NCBI GenBank assembly: GCA_002280875.1
Contig: NCEV01000020.1
Coordinates: 1-37,859, forward strand
DNA: 37,859 nucleotides
Direction: 5' to 3'
Origin: Caulobacter sp. 32-67-35
GTDB taxonomy: Bacteria; Pseudomonadota; Alphaproteobacteria; Caulobacterales; Caulobacteraceae
A model generated the notes under the pieces. That model was not told the DNA's origin, did no database searches, and was given only the letters and a program-made list of their open reading frames with translations. Shown here piece by piece: positions 3,751 to 31,494 of this stretch (positions are counted from its first letter, which is position 1; every line of letters begins with the position of its first letter). A program made the position numbers and the translations under genes.

Positions 3751-5877
<2,127 letters not shown>

Positions 5878-15461: not shown

Positions 15462-16763
15462 ATGACCCCAGCCCAGATCATCGCCCTGGGAGTGCTGGCG
15501 GGAGTCGTCGTCGCCCTGATCCACGGCAAGCTGCGCTCCGATGTGGTGGCCCTGGCTGGCGCCGCGGTGCTGCTGGGCACGCGCACCGTTCGTCCGGTCG
15601 AGGTTCAGGCCGCCTTCGCCAGTCCGGCGATCCTGGCCCTGGCCTCGCTGTTCGTCATCGCCTACGCCATGGAGCTGTCGGGCCTGCTGGGCGTGCTGAT
15701 CCGGGGCGCGACACGGCTCTGCGCCCGCCTGGGCGCGGTGGGCCTGTGGCTGGTCATCGCCTTCTGCGGACTGGCTTCGGCGTTTCTCAACAACACGCCG
15801 ATCGTCGTGCTGGGCGCGCCCGTGGTGCGCGACGTAGCCCGCTCGATGGACCTGTCGCCCAAGCGCTTTCTGATCCCCCTGTCGTACGCGACGATCCTGG
15901 GCGGCGCCTGCACCCTGATCGGCACCTCGACCAATCTTCTGGTCAACGACATGGCCCGCAATGCCGGCCAGCCGGCGTTCAGCCTGTTCGAGATCACGCC
16001 GGTGGCCCTGGTCATCGCCGCGGTCGGCGGCCTCTATCTTGTGCTGGTGGGACCGCGACTGCTGGGCGCCGAGCCGGCGGCGTCACCCGCATCCGAGCCG
16101 ATGGCGCGACCTCCGAACTCGCCGCCCGCCGGCGAGGATCCCGCGCTCTATCCCGTCGACGCGCCTTTCGATCCGGTGAAGGCCGGCGCGGCCCTGGGGG
16201 TTTTCACCCTCGTGGTCACGGTCGCGGCCCTGGGCCTGCTGCCGATCGCGGCGGCGGCCTTCGCCGGGGCGGTGTTGCTGGTGGTGACCGGCGTGATCAG
16301 CGTCGAGGACGCCTATAAGGGCCTGCGCCCCGAAATCCTGCTGCTGATCGCCGGCATGGTGGTGGTTGGCCTTTCCCTGGAACTGACCGGTCTGGCGGCC
16401 CTGACCACGGACGCCCTCGTCGGATGGCTGCGCGGTCTGGGACCGCTGTTCGCCCTGGCGCTGATCTATGGCGCCACCCTGTTCCTGACCGAGATCCTGT
16501 CCAACGCCGCCGTCGCGGTGTTGCTGACGCCGATGGCTGTGGCCCTGGCCGAGAGCCTGGGCGTCAATCCGCGACCCTTCCTGGTGGCGGTGATGATGGC
16601 CGCCAGCGCCGCCTTCGCCACGCCGTTCGGCTATCAGACCAACGTTCTGGTCTATCAGATGGGCGGCTATCGCTATCTGGACTTCGTGCGGATCGGCGCG
16701 CCGCTGAACCTGATCACCTGGGCCGCCGGCATGGCGGCCATCCCGATCTTCTTCCCCTTCTGA
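15462..16763 (+). CDS. SLC13/DASS-type anion permease
   Basis: Integral inner-membrane transporter of 433 residues with about 11 predicted helices. The two SLC13-like inverted halves each contain the substrate and sodium-site signature: FLNNTPIVVLGAPVVRD with GTSTNLLVND in the first half, and LSNAAVAVLLTPMAVAL with ATPFGYQTNVLVYQMGGYR in the second. Substrate could be dicarboxylate, sulfate or another anion; it cannot be told. The central loop (about 208-245, Pro-rich) is short and lacks the two RCK/TrkA-C domains found in many bacterial relatives. The ATG at 15462 begins the first helix; the frame is open further upstream but that is the antisense of the neighbouring gene. It is divergent from the unknown membrane protein, 93 bp apart. 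Confidence 0.88.
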   Translation: MTPAQIIALGVLAGVVVALIHGKLRSDVVALAGAAVLLGTRTVRPVEVQAAFASPAILALASLFVIAYAMELSGLLGVLIRGATRLCARLGAVGLWLVIAFCGLASAFLNNTPIVVLGAPVVRDVARSMDLSPKRFLIPLSYATILGGACTLIGTSTNLLVNDMARNAGQPAFSLFEITPVALVIAAVGGLYLVLVGPRLLGAEPAASPASEPMARPPNSPPAGEDPALYPVDAPFDPVKAGAALGVFTLVVTVAALGLLPIAAAAFAGAVLLVVTGVISVEDAYKGLRPEILLLIAGMVVVGLSLELTGLAALTTDALVGWLRGLGPLFALALIYGATLFLTEILSNAAVAVLLTPMAVALAESLGVNPRPFLVAVMMAASAAFATPFGYQTNVLVYQMGGYRYLDFVRIGAPLNLITWAAGMAAIPIFFPF

Positions 16764-16789
16764 ACCCGGCCGCGCAGCGATTCGGCCGG

Positions 16790-16945
16790 CTCACTCAAGC
16801 TGAGAACCGGCGTCGCTGATAAGCCTCGGCTTTTCCACTCCCCAGCTCAAACCAGTTGAGACGCCCAGCTCGCTCAGAGTGAGACTCGCCCTCATGCGAG
16901 CTCACTCAAAGTGAGAAACTTGCCCCGCGGCTCATTTGGAATGAG
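16790..16945 (+). repeat. Array of five 15-bp CTCA-N7-TGAG palindromes
   Basis: Sites at 16790-16804, 16846-16860, 16869-16883, 16901-16915 and 16931-16945. Four match CTCA-N7-TGAG exactly; the third has CTCG. All five are followed by A. Arms extend in some copies: CTCAC/GTGAG in site 4 and CTCATT/AATGAG in site 5. Start-to-start spacings are 56, 23, 32 and 30 bp. The array begins 27 bp after the permease stop codon. This resembles a set of protein-binding sites; the protein is unknown. A related set lies at 27746-27818. Confidence 0.85.
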
Positions 16946-17077
16946 AATCAGGGGCGAACTCTTCGATACCTGCCGATAAGGTTTCAAGCCGCCCGAGCGC
17001 CAGCGGACTAAGCCGCTCGCGCGGCATGGGTGACCGGCGCTGGCGCCGTGAACGAACCTGAAGTGGCGCCTTGCCCG

Positions 17078-17115
17078 TCCTGTCTGAAGATCAGGGGTCA
17101 ACCCTGCAGACAGGA
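17078..17115 (+). promoter_or_regulatory. Nested hairpin covering the recombinase ribosome site
   Basis: Outer arms TCCTGTCTG (17078-17086) and CAGACAGGA (17107-17115) pair perfectly over 9 bp; inner arms CAGGG (17092-17096) and CCCTG (17102-17106) add 5 bp. The ACAGGAG ribosome site of the recombinase (ATG 17124) is part of the 3' arm, so folding would hide it. It may also be a structural end signal of the IS91-type element. Confidence 0.65.
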
Positions 17116-17123
17116 GATCCCCG

Positions 17124-18083
17124 ATGAGCTCTGCACCCACCACCCCGCTGCGTCAGCGGATGATCGAAGACATGTCCATCCGCCAGTTCGGCGAGCGGAC
17201 CCAGCGCGGCTATGTCGCCGTGGTCGCCGACTTCGCTCGGTTCCTCGGCCGCTCGCCGGACAAGGCCGATCCCGAGGATCTGCGACGATACCAACTGCAT
17301 CTGGCCGCCCAAGGCGTTTCGCCCGGCAAGATGAACGCTGCCGTCTCGGCCCTACGGTTCTTCTTCAACCTCACCCTGGGTCGGCAGGGTTATGGCGAGC
17401 GCTTGGCCAGGGCGCGCAAGGAAGACCGCCTGCCCGAAGTGCTCAGCCCTGAAGAGGTGGCGCTACTGCTGCACTGCGCCCCCAGCCTCAAGCACGAGGC
17501 CGCCCTCAGCGTCGCCTATGGCTGCGGGCTGCGGGTATCGGAGATCACCCACCTGAAGGTCGGCGACATCGACAGCGCCCGCATGCTGATCCGCGTCGAG
17601 CAGGGCAAGGGGCGCAAGGACCGCTACGTGATACTCGCCCCCGATCTGCTGGAGCTGCTGCGCCGATGGTGGCGCTCGGCCCGGCCGATGGGCTGGCTGC
17701 TCCCGGGCCGCGATCCTGGCCAGCCGGTCACCGCCCGCCAGCTCGACCGGGTCTGCAAGGCGGCGGCCAAGACGGCCGGCCTGGACAAGCGGGTGTCGAT
17801 GCACACCCTGCGCCACTCGTTCGCCACCCACCAGCTGGAACGCAAGACCGACGTGCGGGTGATCCAAGCGCTGCTGGGCCACAAGAAGCTGGACACTACA
17901 GCCCGCTACACCCGCGTAGCGATCAAGACCCTGGGGGCGGTGAAGAGCCCGCTGTCGCTGCTTCGGCCGCCGCCCGCCCGAGCCGGTCGCCATGTCCCGG
18001 CCATCCCTGGAGGTGGCCGACATCTTCCGCGCCCATGGCCCGGCTATCGCCGCGCCCAGGCCGGACATCTGAGCCTTGGTTAG
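17124..18083 (+). CDS. Tyrosine recombinase associated with IS91-type element
   Basis: Site-specific recombinase/integrase of 319 residues, apparently intact. The N-terminal SAM-like domain (1-95) has TPLRQRMIEDMSIRQFGERTQRGYVAVV. The catalytic domain shows the full set: Arg137 (GLRVSE), Lys162 (GKGRKDR), His227 and Arg230 (HTLRHSF), His253 (LLGHKK) and the nucleophile Tyr262 (ARYTRV). Such genes regularly precede IS91-family transposases in alphaproteobacteria. The last 40 or so residues after SPLSLLRPP run into the transposase start and are unlikely to be family sequence; they read through because the downstream gene is frameshifted. AGGAG ribosome site at 17112-17116, partly inside a hairpin. 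Confidence 0.9.
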   Translation: MSSAPTTPLRQRMIEDMSIRQFGERTQRGYVAVVADFARFLGRSPDKADPEDLRRYQLHLAAQGVSPGKMNAAVSALRFFFNLTLGRQGYGERLARARKEDRLPEVLSPEEVALLLHCAPSLKHEAALSVAYGCGLRVSEITHLKVGDIDSARMLIRVEQGKGRKDRYVILAPDLLELLRRWWRSARPMGWLLPGRDPGQPVTARQLDRVCKAAAKTAGLDKRVSMHTLRHSFATHQLERKTDVRVIQALLGHKKLDTTARYTRVAIKTLGAVKSPLSLLRPPPARAGRHVPAIPGGGRHLPRPWPGYRRAQAGHLSLG

Positions 18084-19048
18084 CTCAAGGCCATGTCGGC
18101 CATCGAGGCCTGTCGCACCGCCGGGCTCGGCGGTCATGTCGCGCGCTGCGACGACTGCCAGCGCCTGGCGGTGAGCTACAACTCGTACCGCAACCGCCAC
18201 TGCCCTAAGTGCCAGGGCTCGGCAGCCAAGGTCTGGCTGGCTGAACGCGAGGCCGACCTGCTGCCCGCGCCCTACTTCCATGTCGTCTTCACCCTGCCGG
18301 GGGAGATCGCCGCCATCGCCTTCCACAACAAGGCCGTGGTCTATGACCTGCTATTCAAGGCCGCCGCCGAGACCCTGCAGACCATCGCCGCCGACCCCAA
18401 GCTGCTCGGCGCGCGGCTGGGCCTCATCGCCGTGCTGCATACCTGGGGCTCAGTCCTGACCCATCACCCGCATGTGCACTGCATCTTGCCAGGCGGCGGG
18501 CTGTCGCCAGACGGTCAGCGCTGGATCGCATGCCGCAAGGGCTTCTTCCTGCCCGTGCGGGTGTTGTCGCGGTTCTTCCGGCGGCTGTTCCTGGAGAAGC
18601 TCGCCGACGCTCATGCGCGCGGGCGCCTGAGTTTCTTCGGCGAGCTCACGCCATTGGCGGCGCCCGAGGCCCTCGCCGCCTATCTCGCCCCGTTGCGTCG
18701 CGCCGAATGGGTGGTCTACGCCAAGCCACCGTTCGGGGGGCCGGCCACCATGGCCCTGTCGCCGGCCGAGTTCATCCGGCGGTTCCTGATCCACGTGCTG
18801 CCGTCCGGCTTCCACCGCATCCGCCACTATGGCCTGCTAGCCAAGGGTCCCAACGCCGTGCCCTTGAAGACCCTGCGCGCCCTGATCCTGGAGCGAACGC
18901 CGCATCCGGCCGCCGTGCACAAGGACCCAGTGAGCCCAAGGCCACAGCGGCCCTGACCTGCCCGTGCGGCGGCGCCGTGCGGATCATCGAGGTCATCGGC
19001 CGCAGCGGCGCCTGGCGCGCCCGCCCCCTTCGCGCCACTGTGGTGTGA
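17992..19048 (+). pseudogene. IS91-family HUH transposase, broken
   Basis: Rolling-circle (Y2 HUH) transposase with at least four lesions. It starts at ATG 17992 (MSRPSLEVADIFRAHGPA), shifts frame near 18040, and in the following frame meets TAG at 18081-18083 where relatives have glutamine (sequence SLG-stop-LKAMSAIEACRTA). The zinc-finger region (CDDCQ, CRNRHCPKCQ-like: NRHCPKCQG) and the HUH-like motif THHPHVH are kept (18093 onward). After YAKPPFGGP (near 18740) about 40-50 residues normally containing the YLSRYTHR catalytic tyrosines are absent, and the sequence resumes at EFIRRFLIHVLP. A further frameshift near 18925 separates the C-terminal CPCGGAVRIIEV zinc motif, which ends at 19048. 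It cannot encode an active enzyme. Confidence 0.88.
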
Positions 19049-19506
19049 CAGCTCATGAGTCTAGCCACAACGATCGTCCGCGCCCATGCCCGCCATCGCC
19101 CCCGGCCTTGGCGCAGAGCCTGCTGCGCCTCGCGTCCAGCCGCGCCTCAAGCGCCGTTCCGCGACCGCCAATGTCGGCCCCTAACACCGCTCAGGGACCG
19201 ACATGTTGAACGTTTGGGGCTCTTCGTGGCCACTGCCCAGGCCTATTGGGCTATCGTCAGCACCGCAGCGACAACCGCTATCGCCATAGCCTGACACGCT
19301 CGGCGTACTGACCGCGGCTTCCTCCCCTGAAGGCTTTCGAAAGCCGGCCCTCAGCGTCGGCCGCAGACCCAGTGCACGGGCCGGCATCCGAAACCCTCAA
19401 CAGGAACGGAACTTCACAGCGCGCCAACTTCCGGACATTCACTCGGCCATGCTTCACATGCCAAAGATCGGCTCGAACGGCATGGTCCATGCTCGTCGCA
19501 CATTGG
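19049..19506. other. Non-coding region after IS91 remnant
   Basis: 458 bases between the transposase remnant and kdpE with no convincing gene. It probably includes the 3' (origin) end of the IS91-type element. A perfect 14-bp palindrome, GGCTTTCGAAAGCC, lies at 19333-19346; it could be a sub-terminal hairpin of the element or part of a terminator for kdpE, which ends at 19507 on the minus strand. Confidence 0.45.
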
Positions 19507-20199
19507 CTAGTCCGCAATGAAGCGGTAACCGACCCCAGGCTCGGTTTCGATGATCTTCGGATGAGCCGGATCGATTTCCAGCTTTTGGCGCAGCTGGCCG
19601 ACGAAGACGCGCAGATACTGGGTGTCCGTTGCGTGGGCGGGGCCCCATACGGCGACCAGCAGGTCCTTGTGCGTCAGCAATTTGCCGCGCCCCGAAGCCA
19701 GGCGGGCGAGCAGCTCGAATTCCTTGGGCGAAACCTTCACCACCGCGCCGCCTCGGGTAACCCGATGCTTGTCCAGATCGATCTCGACATCGCCGGCCCG
19801 GATTGGTCCGGGCGGCAGCCTGGTGGAGGCGCGCTGGCGCAAAGCGGCGCGAAGACGGGCCAGCAGCTCGCCCACCCCGAAAGGCTTTTCCAGGTAGTCG
19901 TTAGCGCCGTGGTCCAGAGCCTGGATCTTCTCGGCCTCGCGATCGCGGGCCGACAGGATCAGGATCGGACCGTCATAGAAGTCGCGCGCCCGGATCAGCA
20001 CATCCTTGCCATCCATGTCGGGTAGGCCCAGGTCCAGCACCACCGCGTCGGGCGACCATGTCGCCACGCCCCGCAGGCCCTCCTGCCCGCTGTCAGCGCG
20101 CAGGGGCTCATAGCCGGCCGCATCGAGCGCCGGACCCAGGAAGCGGTGGATCTGGGGCTCATCGTCGATGACCAGGATGCGTGGACGCGAGATGCTCAT
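19507..20199 (-). CDS. kdpE: Response regulator KdpE
   Basis: OmpR-type response regulator of 230 residues controlling the kdp potassium-uptake genes. The receiver has the acidic pair in VIDDEPQ (11-13), phospho-acceptor Asp56 (VVLDLGLPDMDG), the conserved Ser in ILSARD and Lys in YLEKPFG. The C-terminal winged helix (about 130-228) includes VKVSPKEFELLARLASGRGKLLTHKDLLVAVWG and the YLRVFVGQLRQKLE recognition helix. It starts 7 bp after the kdpD stop codon and is the last gene of the operon. Confidence 0.95.
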   Translation of the reverse strand: MSISRPRILVIDDEPQIHRFLGPALDAAGYEPLRADSGQEGLRGVATWSPDAVVLDLGLPDMDGKDVLIRARDFYDGPILILSARDREAEKIQALDHGANDYLEKPFGVGELLARLRAALRQRASTRLPPGPIRAGDVEIDLDKHRVTRGGAVVKVSPKEFELLARLASGRGKLLTHKDLLVAVWGPAHATDTQYLRVFVGQLRQKLEIDPAHPKIIETEPGVGYRFIAD

Positions 20200-20206
20200 G
20201 GCGCCG

Positions 20207-22885
20207 CTATAACAGGTGATGCGGCGTGGCGACCGCCTTGGGCAGGCTGATCAGGATGCGCGTGCCCTTGCCGTCATGGATCGGGCTGGCGGCGGCGATG
20301 CGGCCGCCCATGGCGTCGATGAAGCCCTTGGCGATCGAAAGGCCCAGGCCTGCGCCCTGATTGCGGTCGCTCGGCTCCTCCATGCGGCGGAACTTTTCGA
20401 ACACCCGCTCCAGCTCGGCGGTCGCGATACCGCGCCCCTCGTCCTCAATGCTGATCACCACATTGGCGCGATCCTCATAGGCCGCCATCTCGATGCGCGC
20501 CTCGGCCGGGCTATAGGCGATGGCGTTTTCCAGGATGTTGACGATGGCCTGCTCCAGCAGACTGCCGTCAACCCTCACCAGGCTCAGCTCGGCCGGATAG
20601 TCGCGGGTCAGCGCGCGGCCGCCCAGCCGGCGGGCCACACGATCGGCGGCCGCGCCCAGCACATCGCGCACATCGGTCCAGTCGGTGCGCAGGCGAAGCG
20701 CCCCGCCCTCCAGCCGGGTCATGTCCAGCAGGTTGCCGACATAGCGGTTCAGACGCTCGGCCTCCTCGCGGATGCTCAAGGTCAGGTCAGCGCGCACGGC
20801 GGGCGTCAGGGTCTTGCCATAGTCGATCAGGGTGCTGGAGGCGCCCAGCACGGTCGAGAGCGGCGTGCGCAGGTCATGGCTGATCGAGTTCAGCAGCGCC
20901 GAGCGAAAGCGGTCGGCCCGGCGCAGGGTCTCGGTCTCGACGGCCTCGGTCGCCAGTTCGGCCCGTTCCAGAGCCACGGCGCCCTGCTCAAGCAAGGCCA
21001 GAACCAGACGCTCGGTGTCGGAGCCGGCCACCATCACCCCGGCCTCGACACCGGCCACGCCGGCGCGGGACCGCACGCCGTCCAGCGGCCAGAAGGTCCA
21101 GCGGGTCTGCGGCAGGGTGCCGGTGCCAAAGCCGGCCGGCTCGCCCTTCTCCCAGGCCCAGCGCGCGGCGGCCATCGGGGCGGCGTCGAGCGGTTCCAGG
21201 GTCGGCGCGCCGGCGGCGGGCTCCAGCTCGCCATCGCGCGGCAACAGCACCATGGCCTTGGCGCCCGCTGCGGCCGCCGCCTGGTCGGCGATGGCCCGGG
21301 CGGTGGCGCCGCGATCGGCGGCGGCCGAGAAGATGCGGCTGGCCGCCAGCAGGGCCGACACCGCCGAGGCGCGCCGCTGGGCGTCCTGTCCCTGATCACG
21401 CACCCGCCCTGCAAGCCCACCGGCCGCCAGCGCCACAGCCCAGAAGACGATCAGGGTCAGGACGTCGGTCGGCGAACCGATCTGAAAGCTGTAGCGCGGC
21501 TCCAGGAACAGATAATTGTAGACGAGAAAGGCGACGGTCGCCGCCGCCAAGGCGGGGCGCAGGCCGTGCCGAACACCGGCCGCCAGCACCGCCGCCAGGA
21601 AGATCATCCCCAGGTCCACGCTGTCGAACGCCACGTCCAGACCCCAGGCGCACAAGGTGGCGACGCCGACGAAAGCCGCGCCCGTGAAATAGGCGCGCCA
21701 GGGCGGCCGAGCGCGGGGCTTGGGCGGCTCGGGCGCAGCCTCATGCGCCGCCTCGGTGACCACATGGATCGCCGCGCCGCGCGCCTCTCTCAGTAGGGCC
21801 GCCGCCAGGGACTGACCCAGCATCTCGCGCCAGCGGCTGTCGGCCGACTTGCCGATGACGATCTGGGTGACGTTGTTGCGCCGGGCATAGGCCATCACCG
21901 TGGCGACGATATCCGACCCCGTCAGCACCACGGTCGATCCGCCCAGCTGCTCGGCCAGCTTCAGCGCGTCGCGAACCCGGGCGCCGGCCACCGGACCCGG
22001 CGGGGCGTGGTCGGGCCTGTCCACATGGGTGACGGTCCACGGCGCATCCATCATCATGTCCGACAGGCGTCGGCCGGTACGGACCAGCCCCGCCGACATG
22101 GCGTCGCCGCCGATCAGCACCAGGATCCGCTCGCCCGCCGCCCAGGGGCCCTCGACCCCCTTTTCGCGCATGGCGGCGACCAGCTGGTCGTCCACCGTCT
22201 GGGCGGCGCGGCGCAGGGCCAGTTCCCGCAGGGCGGTCAGGTTCTCGACCTTGAAGAAGTTCTCCGAGGCCAGCCGCGCCGTCTCGGGCACATAGACCTT
22301 GCCCGCCGCCATCCGCTCGCGCAGCTCGTCGGGGGTGATATCGATCACCTCGATGGCGTCGGCCCGCGACAGAGCGCTGTCGGGCACCGTCTCGCGCTGG
22401 CGCACGCCGGTGATGCGCTGCACCACATCGACAAGGCTTTCCAGATGTTGGACGTTCAGGGTCGTCCAGACATCGATGCCGGCCGCCAGCAGCTCTTCCA
22501 CATCCTGCCACCGCTTGGGATGGCGCGAGCCCGGCGCGTTGGCGTGAGCGTATTCGTCGACCAGCAGCAGGGCCGGCTTGCGCGCCAAGGCCGCGTCGAG
22601 GTCGAACTCCATCATCACGTGGCCGCGATGATCGATCGGCCGACGCGGCATGACCTCCATGTCGCGCAGCAGGCTTTCGGTCTCGCGGCGGCCGTGGGTC
22701 TCGACCAGACCGACGACCACGTCCTTGCCCTCGGCCTTGCGACGCCGCGCGGCGCGCAGCATCTCGTAGGTCTTGCCCACGCCCGGCGCCATGCCCAGAA
22801 ACACCTTGAGGCGCCCCCGGCCCGCCTTGTTGGCGGCGGCCAGAAGCGCCTCTGGATCGGGCCTTTTGGGTTCGTCGGCCGGCAA
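20207..22885 (-). CDS. kdpD: Sensor histidine kinase KdpD
   Basis: Membrane sensor kinase of about 892 residues for potassium limitation. The N-terminal KdpD domain has the Walker A-like GMAPGVGKTYEML and VDEYAHANAPGSRHPKRWQDVEELLAAGIDVWTT. A Usp-like domain follows at about 230-370, then four membrane helices (about 395-500), a GAF-like region, HisKA with ISHDLRTPLS (His670) and an HATPase (NILENAIAYSP, EDEGRGI, GAGLGLSIAKG). Start choice: TTG at 22885, four bases after the kdpC stop, begins PADEPKRPDPEALL as in relatives. A longer frame to 22981 would overlap kdpC by about 90 bp and add a non-family Cys/Ser-rich stretch. Confidence 0.93.
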   Translation of the reverse strand: MPADEPKRPDPEALLAAANKAGRGRLKVFLGMAPGVGKTYEMLRAARRRKAEGKDVVVGLVETHGRRETESLLRDMEVMPRRPIDHRGHVMMEFDLDAALARKPALLLVDEYAHANAPGSRHPKRWQDVEELLAAGIDVWTTLNVQHLESLVDVVQRITGVRQRETVPDSALSRADAIEVIDITPDELRERMAAGKVYVPETARLASENFFKVENLTALRELALRRAAQTVDDQLVAAMREKGVEGPWAAGERILVLIGGDAMSAGLVRTGRRLSDMMMDAPWTVTHVDRPDHAPPGPVAGARVRDALKLAEQLGGSTVVLTGSDIVATVMAYARRNNVTQIVIGKSADSRWREMLGQSLAAALLREARGAAIHVVTEAAHEAAPEPPKPRARPPWRAYFTGAAFVGVATLCAWGLDVAFDSVDLGMIFLAAVLAAGVRHGLRPALAAATVAFLVYNYLFLEPRYSFQIGSPTDVLTLIVFWAVALAAGGLAGRVRDQGQDAQRRASAVSALLAASRIFSAAADRGATARAIADQAAAAAGAKAMVLLPRDGELEPAAGAPTLEPLDAAPMAAARWAWEKGEPAGFGTGTLPQTRWTFWPLDGVRSRAGVAGVEAGVMVAGSDTERLVLALLEQGAVALERAELATEAVETETLRRADRFRSALLNSISHDLRTPLSTVLGASSTLIDYGKTLTPAVRADLTLSIREEAERLNRYVGNLLDMTRLEGGALRLRTDWTDVRDVLGAAADRVARRLGGRALTRDYPAELSLVRVDGSLLEQAIVNILENAIAYSPAEARIEMAAYEDRANVVISIEDEGRGIATAELERVFEKFRRMEEPSDRNQGAGLGLSIAKGFIDAMGGRIAAASPIHDGKGTRILISLPKAVATPHHLL

Positions 22886-22889
22886 GCGT

Positions 22890-23462
22890 CTAGCCCGGCG
22901 CGCGGGCGTCGAGCACCCGGTTGACCGCCAGCACATTGACGCGCGGCTGGCCGATGAAGCCCAGCAGACGACCTTGGACATTGGCGTCGATCACCGCCTC
23001 GACCTGCGGCGTCGTCAGGCCGCGCGCCTTGGCGATGCGGGGCGCCTGCAGGCGGGCGAAGGCCGGCGAGATCTCGGGATCCAGGCCCGAGCCCGAGGTG
23101 GTGACGGCGTCGGCGGGGATCACCACGCCGGGGTTCTCGGCGCGCAGGGCGTCGGCGTCGGTCTTGACCCGCTCGGCAAGGGCCTCGTTCATCGGGCCCA
23201 TATTGGAGCCGCTGGAGGCCGAGGCATCATAGCCGGCGCCGGCCGCCGACGGGCGGGGGTGCAGATATTTCGCCGCCGCGAACGGCTGGCCGATCAGGGC
23301 CGAGCCGATGACGGTCCCCTTGGCGTCACGGACAAGGCTGCCATTGGCCTGATCCGGGAACGCCGCCTGGGCGACGCCGGTGATCGCCAGCGGGTAGGCC
23401 AGGCCCAGCAGGGCGGTGAAAAGGCCCATGGAAACCAGGGCGGGACGAAGGTGGGAGAGCAT
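22890..23462 (-). CDS. kdpC: Potassium-transporting ATPase subunit KdpC
   Basis: Single-pass membrane subunit of 190 residues that stabilises the KdpFABC pump. The N-terminal helix (about 9-31) is followed by family motifs GSALIGQPFAAAKYLHPRPSAAG, GSNMGPMNEAL, and the C-terminal VTTSGSGLDPEISPAFARLQAPRIAKARG. A GGAG ribosome site precedes the ATG by 9 bases. It lies 24 bp after kdpB. Confidence 0.95.
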   Translation of the reverse strand: MLSHLRPALVSMGLFTALLGLAYPLAITGVAQAAFPDQANGSLVRDAKGTVIGSALIGQPFAAAKYLHPRPSAAGAGYDASASSGSNMGPMNEALAERVKTDADALRAENPGVVIPADAVTTSGSGLDPEISPAFARLQAPRIAKARGLTTPQVEAVIDANVQGRLLGFIGQPRVNVLAVNRVLDARAPG

Positions 23463-23486
23463 GTTGGAATCTCCGAAGGTGACAGC

Positions 23487-25556
<2,070 letters not shown>

Positions 25557-25583
25557 GTCAAATCGCCTTTGCGATCAGCTGTG

Positions 25584-27236
<1,653 letters not shown>

Positions 27237-27249
27237 GAAATGTGATCCG

Positions 27250-27336
27250 TCAGAACTTGTCGGGTCGCAGCAGGGCCGCGACCATATAGGCCGCGACGAC
27301 GATCGCCCCGGCTCCCCACAGCACGCTCACCAGCAT
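27250..27336 (-). CDS. kdpF: Small membrane subunit KdpF
   Basis: 28-residue single-helix peptide: [18 protein letters not shown], then [10 protein letters not shown]. The C-terminal LL-P-KF ending is the hallmark of KdpF, which sits beside KdpA and stabilises the complex. It is 13 bp upstream of kdpA and 2 bp downstream of another small ORF. Confidence 0.9.
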
Positions 27337-27338
27337 GG

Positions 27339-27422
27339 TCAGACGCGCCTCAACGCCATGGCGAAGCCGGCGAAGGCCGAAAACAGCCCCACCCCCAGCG
27401 CCAGAAAAATCAGGTCAGCCAT
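27339..27422 (-). CDS. Small membrane peptide upstream of kdpF
   Basis: A 27-residue ORF: MADLIFLALGVGLFSAF, then AGFAMALRRV, one hydrophobic helix followed by a basic end. GGAGG lies five bases before the ATG, the strongest ribosome site in the operon, and the stop is two bases before the kdpF ATG. From memory, short ORFs of similar length and layout precede kdpF in other bacteria, but I cannot confirm a family name. It may be an accessory KdpFABC peptide or a leader peptide. Confidence 0.7.
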   Translation of the reverse strand: MADLIFLALGVGLFSAFAGFAMALRRV

Positions 27423-27462
27423 TGCCGCCTCCGTTCGGATAGGCGGCTTGAAGACCACGGCG

Positions 27463-27745: not shown

Positions 27746-27818
27746 CTCCCACAGTGCGAGTCTCATCTCTTTGATACACAGTCTCATCTATTGTGGATCA
27801 CTTCTCATTCATAGTGAG
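27746..27818 (-). repeat. TGAGA repeat array downstream of gyrB
   Basis: Full palindrome CTCACTATGAATGAG on the minus strand at 27804-27818, fitting CTCA-N7-TGAG. ATGAGA then recurs at exact 21-bp steps (CTCA on the plus strand starting 27804, 27783 and 27762). A last degenerate 15-mer is at 27746-27760. The ten-mer TGAGACTCGC at 27756-27765 is also in the first array at 16880-16889. The array begins 24 bp after the gyrB stop. Confidence 0.75.
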
Positions 27819-27841
27819 CCGGTCCAGCGATCCCGACGTCG

Positions 27842-31494
<3,653 letters not shown>

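Follow-up and report, generated by a model that had tools for sequence, protein, structure and literature searches.

A cluster of CTCA-N7-TGAG palindromes downstream of a permease gene in Caulobacter sp. 32-67-35: a candidate set of 3' RNA hairpins

A palindrome cluster between convergent genes

The window, by which we mean the whole 37,859-nt stretch of contig NCEV01000020.1 analysed here, contains a gene for a CitMHS/SLC13-type permease (15462–16763, plus strand; PF03600, E 8e-63) that is convergent with a minus-strand gene for a response regulator (19507–20199; Response_reg and Trans_reg_C domains). The latter is probably kdpE, a name suggested by the KdpA gene in its neighbourhood. The kdp genes sit between gyrB and the permease (19403–27440). 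In relatives such as G019 and G050 the matches to the permease and to the kdpE-like gene are widely separated, so that the junction between them looks unusual in the window, and the order of the permease, kdp and gyrB genes looks rearranged, to judge from the listed coordinates.

Five 15-bp palindromes of the form CTCA-N7-TGAG occupy positions 16790–16945, the first starting 26 bp downstream of the permease stop codon. A pattern count in the window gave four exact copies and one with a single mismatch, as the first-pass annotation had reported, and also reproduced its start-to-start spacings of 56, 23, 32 and 30, its placing of the array directly after the permease and its observation that an A follows every copy. 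All five sites were read on the plus strand. Site 1 (CTCACTCAAGCTGAG, 16790–16804) is exact and is flanked on both sides by an outer stem, GCCGG/CCGGC; site 2 (CTCAAACCAGTTGAG, 16846–16860) and site 4 (CTCACTCAAAGTGAG, 16901–16915) are exact; site 3 (CTCGCTCAGAGTGAG, 16869–16883) reads CTCG-N7-TGAG, its one mismatch being a G-U wobble in RNA from the plus strand only; and site 5 (CTCATTTGGAATGAG, 16931–16945) is exact and enclosed by GCCCC/GGGGC. A G precedes each site just as an A follows it, all in a single common orientation, and the extended form GCTCA-N7-TGAGA is found exactly at 16789, 16845, 16900 and 16930 and with one mismatch at 16868. Two features had escaped the first-pass annotation: a further hairpin, CTCGC-N6-GCGAG (16885–16900, plus strand), which a search for short inverted repeats placed between site 3 and site 4, and a sixth exact palindrome outside the array, at 27804.

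The outer arms are kept across the five copies, and the spacers vary and are conserved far less. Over 18 nt, sites 1 and 4 are 89% identical, and sites 2 and 3 each share 72% with site 1. The copies are too divergent, and too unevenly spaced, for the recent tandem duplication that had been argued against from the outset; the separate protein-binding sites proposed in its place found little support (see below). Three GANTC (CcrM-type) sites fall within 171 bp (16779–16949), at 16779, 16883 and 16945, the last two beginning on the final base of site 3 and of site 5, respectively. The whole window contains 47 such sites, one per 806 bp, and at 30410 four of them stand closer together.

The packing of the array is a real cluster, beyond chance. 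When one mismatch is allowed, the total number of CTCA-N7-TGAG sites in the window is at chance level (14, against a mean of 13.9). To keep the motif from being chosen post hoc, the cluster test spanned all 4-base arms and spacers of 3–12; under these terms a single cluster in the window reaches four exact copies within 160 bp. In 60 dinucleotide shuffles of the window no cluster exceeded three copies, and none equalled the packing of the array. A background of real DNA (1,485,818 bases in overlapping loci, with 24 loci excluded in advance, 20 from this genome and four with the tandem repeat of G262) included five loci with four copies, and this background is unfair, since all five had originally been retrieved through pattern searches.

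Some 50 bp past site 5 begins an IS91-family (ISMno24-like) insertion sequence (16997–19402, plus strand), likewise absent from the first-pass annotation. Its left end, at 16997–17005, was set by a block conserved in 15 aligned rows, two of them apparently one contig, and its right end, at about 19402, by six loci; the type was named through an annotated relative, H1, related to ISMno24. It encodes a tyrosine recombinase (17124–18083, plus strand; PF00589, E 5.2e-38) and a Y2_Tnp transposase (18093–18956, plus strand; PF04986, E 3.4e-43; PF14319, E 1e-24). The zinc domain of the transposase is matched from profile position 23 of 90, its start being missing, and by this sign the copy at 17124–18956 may be decayed. 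All other matches to the recombinase in this genome have 41% identity or less. If the insertion sequence is subtracted, the coordinates imply that the permease and the kdpE-like gene would converge on about 337 bp, with the array filling much of it.

Occurrence of the motif in the genome, in relatives and in mobile DNA

Across the whole genome (4.1 Mb in 163 contigs), CTCA-N7-TGAGA has 15 exact matches, a total in which two palindromic places appear once for each strand, and no cluster of exact sites was found besides the array. The longer GCTCA-N7-TGAGA occurs exactly seven times: four in the array, one after gyrB and two solitary elsewhere. A reversed control pattern had no exact match and, with one mismatch, 33 matches against 140 for the real motif, so CTCA/TGAG words are commoner in this genome than their reversed form; at least part of these 140 places was examined, among the matches listed.

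Nor was any array of this kind found in relatives. The genome of the array was part of every set searched. A search for pairs of sites in 61 genomes of the genus returned only the array itself; in 390 genomes of the family it added a perfect 17-bp tandem repeat in G262 and a lone pair in G110, and a search for triples in a sample of 385 genomes of the class added G550 alone, again a perfect tandem repeat. These patterns demand exact arms and tolerate gaps up to 31 or 35, a setting that diverged arrays can escape and at which the array itself qualifies for the pair pattern through sites 4 and 5 alone. BLAST of 235 array bases against the 390 family genomes, in which the best two candidates per genome were scored (the best eight in an earlier DNA search), gave, besides the locus itself, short matches with E 0.0039 or worse, and among the best candidates scored no second copy of the array DNA was found in its own genome. 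The 3' end of the permease gene was matched in loci of 15 other genomes; none of the 15 has an exact CTCA-N7-TGAG, and the sequence 3' of the permease differs among these relatives (13 of 15 displayed). In one comparison of permease flanks the end of the gene was not located in two of six loci. We therefore discarded an array common to relatives, whether at the permease or elsewhere, having seen none in the searches of genus, family and class sample. The first-pass annotation had proposed scanning genomes for such clusters as the test of a regulator; the regulator reading fails most of that test, because no regulon was found and no relative has such an array.

Searches with the array among plasmids and phages returned short matches without significance (E 0.7 or worse and E 3 or worse, respectively), and a phage or plasmid origin was set aside on these matches. 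The pair pattern was present in 67 stretches of viral contigs, and six of these stretches packed three or four sites into 250 bp. One of the six, L160, was examined; at 4700–5000 it carries several TCTCA-N7-TGAGA palindromes inside an ORF encoding a repeated peptide, and no link between these and the array was found. A further locus, L241, looked like a HipB-type (HipB/HipA) operator region. A literature search for the motif as written, in four spellings, found nothing. No Rfam covariance model matched the array; one weak match (E 0.76) lies outside it, at 17102–17126.

The sixth exact palindrome belongs to another repeat set. Within the gyrB 3' region (27755–27825, minus strand), TGAGA occurs three times at 21-bp steps, and the first repeat is GCTCA-N7-TGAGA, 23 bp past the stop codon of gyrB and oriented to its gene as the array motif is to the permease. 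These repeats differ from the array in their regular spacing, and in relatives they are not CTCA-N7-TGAG. A survey of the gyrB 3' region matched 73 genomes, of which 30 gave loci, 16 of these readable by pattern. Four of the 16, within the genus, have the repeats: this genome (G000) and G012 with three TGAGA, and G044 and G045 with two plus a copy that differs by one base. A motif drawn from the relatives' repeats, CACGATAGATGAGA, was found in 13 of 75 genomes, following gyrB in the same four and elsewhere as scattered single copies; its doubled form had no match in viral contigs, and its flank had no more than weak matches in plasmids. Aligned with the gyrB repeats, the array scored 28, a value reached by 20 of 1000 shuffles and by 49 of 1378 real pieces of the window; with free gaps, 8 of 500 shuffles and 162 of 1378 real pieces did as well. 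Common descent of the two was not convincing on this alignment, which 49 of the 1378 real pieces equalled.

Folding of the array and the readings it favours

The array may amount to no more than a series of RNA hairpins, and the reading that we favour, with a probability of roughly 0.4, is a group of hairpins specific to this lineage in the 3' part of the permease transcript. We infer that the stretch is transcribed, and also what the hairpins do. On transcription of the plus strand each CTCA...TGAG dyad would form a stem of about six pairs, a second stem would enclose some of the hairpins, and together they could terminate or protect the mRNA of the permease and reduce transcription running on into the convergent kdp genes. 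The dyads themselves, their orientation, the pairing beyond the arms, the fold of the plus strand and the distance of 26 bp from the stop codon are all observed.

The plus strand of 16764–16996 (233 bases) folds at -90.9 kcal/mol (z -3.30), with none of 200 shuffles as good; for the minus strand z is -1.27, and 23 of 200 shuffles do as well. A repeat with 40 shuffles gave z values of -3.8 and -1.2, respectively. Among 81 spaced plus-strand pieces of the window, folded with 16 shuffles per piece, the piece at 16777 had the second-best score (z -5.1), and three of the 81 reached -3. Since the plus strand also folds well as DNA (z -2.81), the array may instead have a role as DNA. Inverted repeats with arms of five and G-T pairs allowed number 16 on the plus strand, against a shuffle mean of 7.0 (sd 3.3, maximum 18), and 11 on the minus strand, against 15.5 and thus without excess; without G-T pairs there are 6, against 1.9 (sd 1.6, maximum 8).

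When the five sites are aligned, a six-pair stem extends inward past the arms, with 28 of its 30 cells paired. At the fifth pair two copies have C-G, one has A-T and one T-A, and the remaining copy is unpaired, so that pairing is kept in four of the five. Of 500 partner shuffles, 28 matched the covariation score of the alignment; six slid versions all fell short of it. The pair measures were reached by 28 to 167 of 500 shuffles. With 28 of 500 shuffles reaching the score, and with five copies that are few and may share descent, covariation within the array is suggestive only; for a comparison between species the searches found no homologue. Taken singly and compared with shuffles of their flanks, site 5 folds clearly better (fraction 0.037) and site 1 weakly so (0.07), and sites 2, 3 and 4 do no better (0.77, 0.74 and 0.40). 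Site 1 is more stable on the minus strand (-21.8 against -18.6; fraction 0.013), which counts against a plus-strand reading.

Next in our order of preference, and somewhat more doubtful, is an operator array of LysR-type geometry (a 15-bp dyad containing T-N11-A) that would bind a dimeric or tetrameric regulator and now lies stranded between convergent genes. If true, it would point to an unknown regulator. As first proposed, a 4 + 7 + 4 dyad does suit a dimer; that the geometry matched no known regulator did not hold, because the T-N11-A of the LysR-type box lies within the dyad, as in PMC6628147 and PMC8407307. In favour of this reading, the outer arms are kept in five copies and the spacers vary, and a rearrangement at the IS91-family element perhaps removed the promoter once served, in keeping with the unusual-looking junction. 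Against this, the array lies downstream of both the permease and the convergent kdpE-like gene, and a scan for sigma-70 promoters found no promoter-like site there; with convergent genes and no such site, an operator would have hardly anything to regulate. The interval from the insertion sequence to kdpE likewise yielded neither a sigma-70-like promoter nor a terminator. Pfam identified no LysR-type gene in the 22 ORFs scanned, a part of those in the window, the regulators among them being a CRP-like regulator, an ECF sigma factor, the kdpE-like regulator and HrcA. The lack of a second exact-site cluster in this genome, and of any of this kind in the relatives searched, also speaks against it. 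Finally, the fixed G and A flanks and the single orientation count for hairpins, since a symmetric dimer site needs neither.

Slightly less probable again is a neutral expansion, in which a small palindromic repeat was multiplied by local duplication or template switching and has since diverged without function. It would account for an array present in one genome only among those searched, for the close likeness of sites 1 and 4 beside the lower identities of sites 2 and 3, and for the variable permease 3' flank, and similar words do form perfect tandem repeats in G262 and G550. It sits poorly with arms that are far better kept than the spacers, and with changes in the fifth pair that keep pairing in most copies.

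We regard the remaining readings as improbable. Subterminal arrays of binding sites exist in some transposons, and this, like the junction at an insertion sequence, could suit the leftover end of a mobile element distinct from the adjacent one, with several transposase-binding sites near one end; the insignificant plasmid and phage matches, and the lack of a second copy in the genome by DNA search, make it unlikely. About as unlikely, or slightly more so, is a new multi-unit 3' element, made of GCTCA-N7-TGAGA units that begin 23–26 bp past a stop codon, that would embrace the array and the diverged gyrB repeats and be read by a novel RNA- or DNA-binding protein. Least probable by far is that the array forms part of the IS91-family element as binding sites for its recombinase or transposase: it stops only about 50 bp short of the element, and this reading was rejected, and is refuted wherever the flank suffices, because conserved element sequence begins only at 16997–17005 and none of 80 related loci has such a cluster before the recombinase gene (10 of the 80 with less than 334 bp before the match).

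The first-pass interpretation is thus partly supported, and the claim is narrowed: the cluster is real, no regulon was found, and the array lies outside the neighbouring insertion sequence.

Comparison with known systems

LysR-type boxes consist of T-N11-A within a dyad, for example ATAC-N7-GTAT at the BenM/CatM site (PMC6628147), and two to four such motifs per promoter region are mentioned in PMC8407307. The array resembles them in its 15-bp length, arms of four, spacer of seven, and several sites close together; T and A stand eleven apart in all five sites, four of the dyads being exact and one mismatched. It differs in its other arm letters, in having five sites, in its position after a gene rather than upstream of a target promoter, and in that no regulator gene was found among the 22 ORFs.

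The CIR elements of Caulobacter are about 110 bp long and abundant (PMC2229807). Like them, the array is intergenic, with inverted repeats and some GANTC sites (for CcrM, named CerM in that paper). Unlike a dispersed repeat, it had no second copy in its own genome by DNA search of the best candidates scored.

Bacterial 3' hairpin and terminator regions occur between convergent genes. The array differs from these in consisting of several short hairpins with common arms, and no G+C-rich stem with a T-run, as in a canonical intrinsic terminator, was found at it. It resembles them in its position and in the strong folding of its plus strand, which exceeds that of shuffles, as expected of a structured RNA, in both the full and the repeated comparison. 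If the hairpin reading is correct, the array would be one more complex 3' end between convergent genes.
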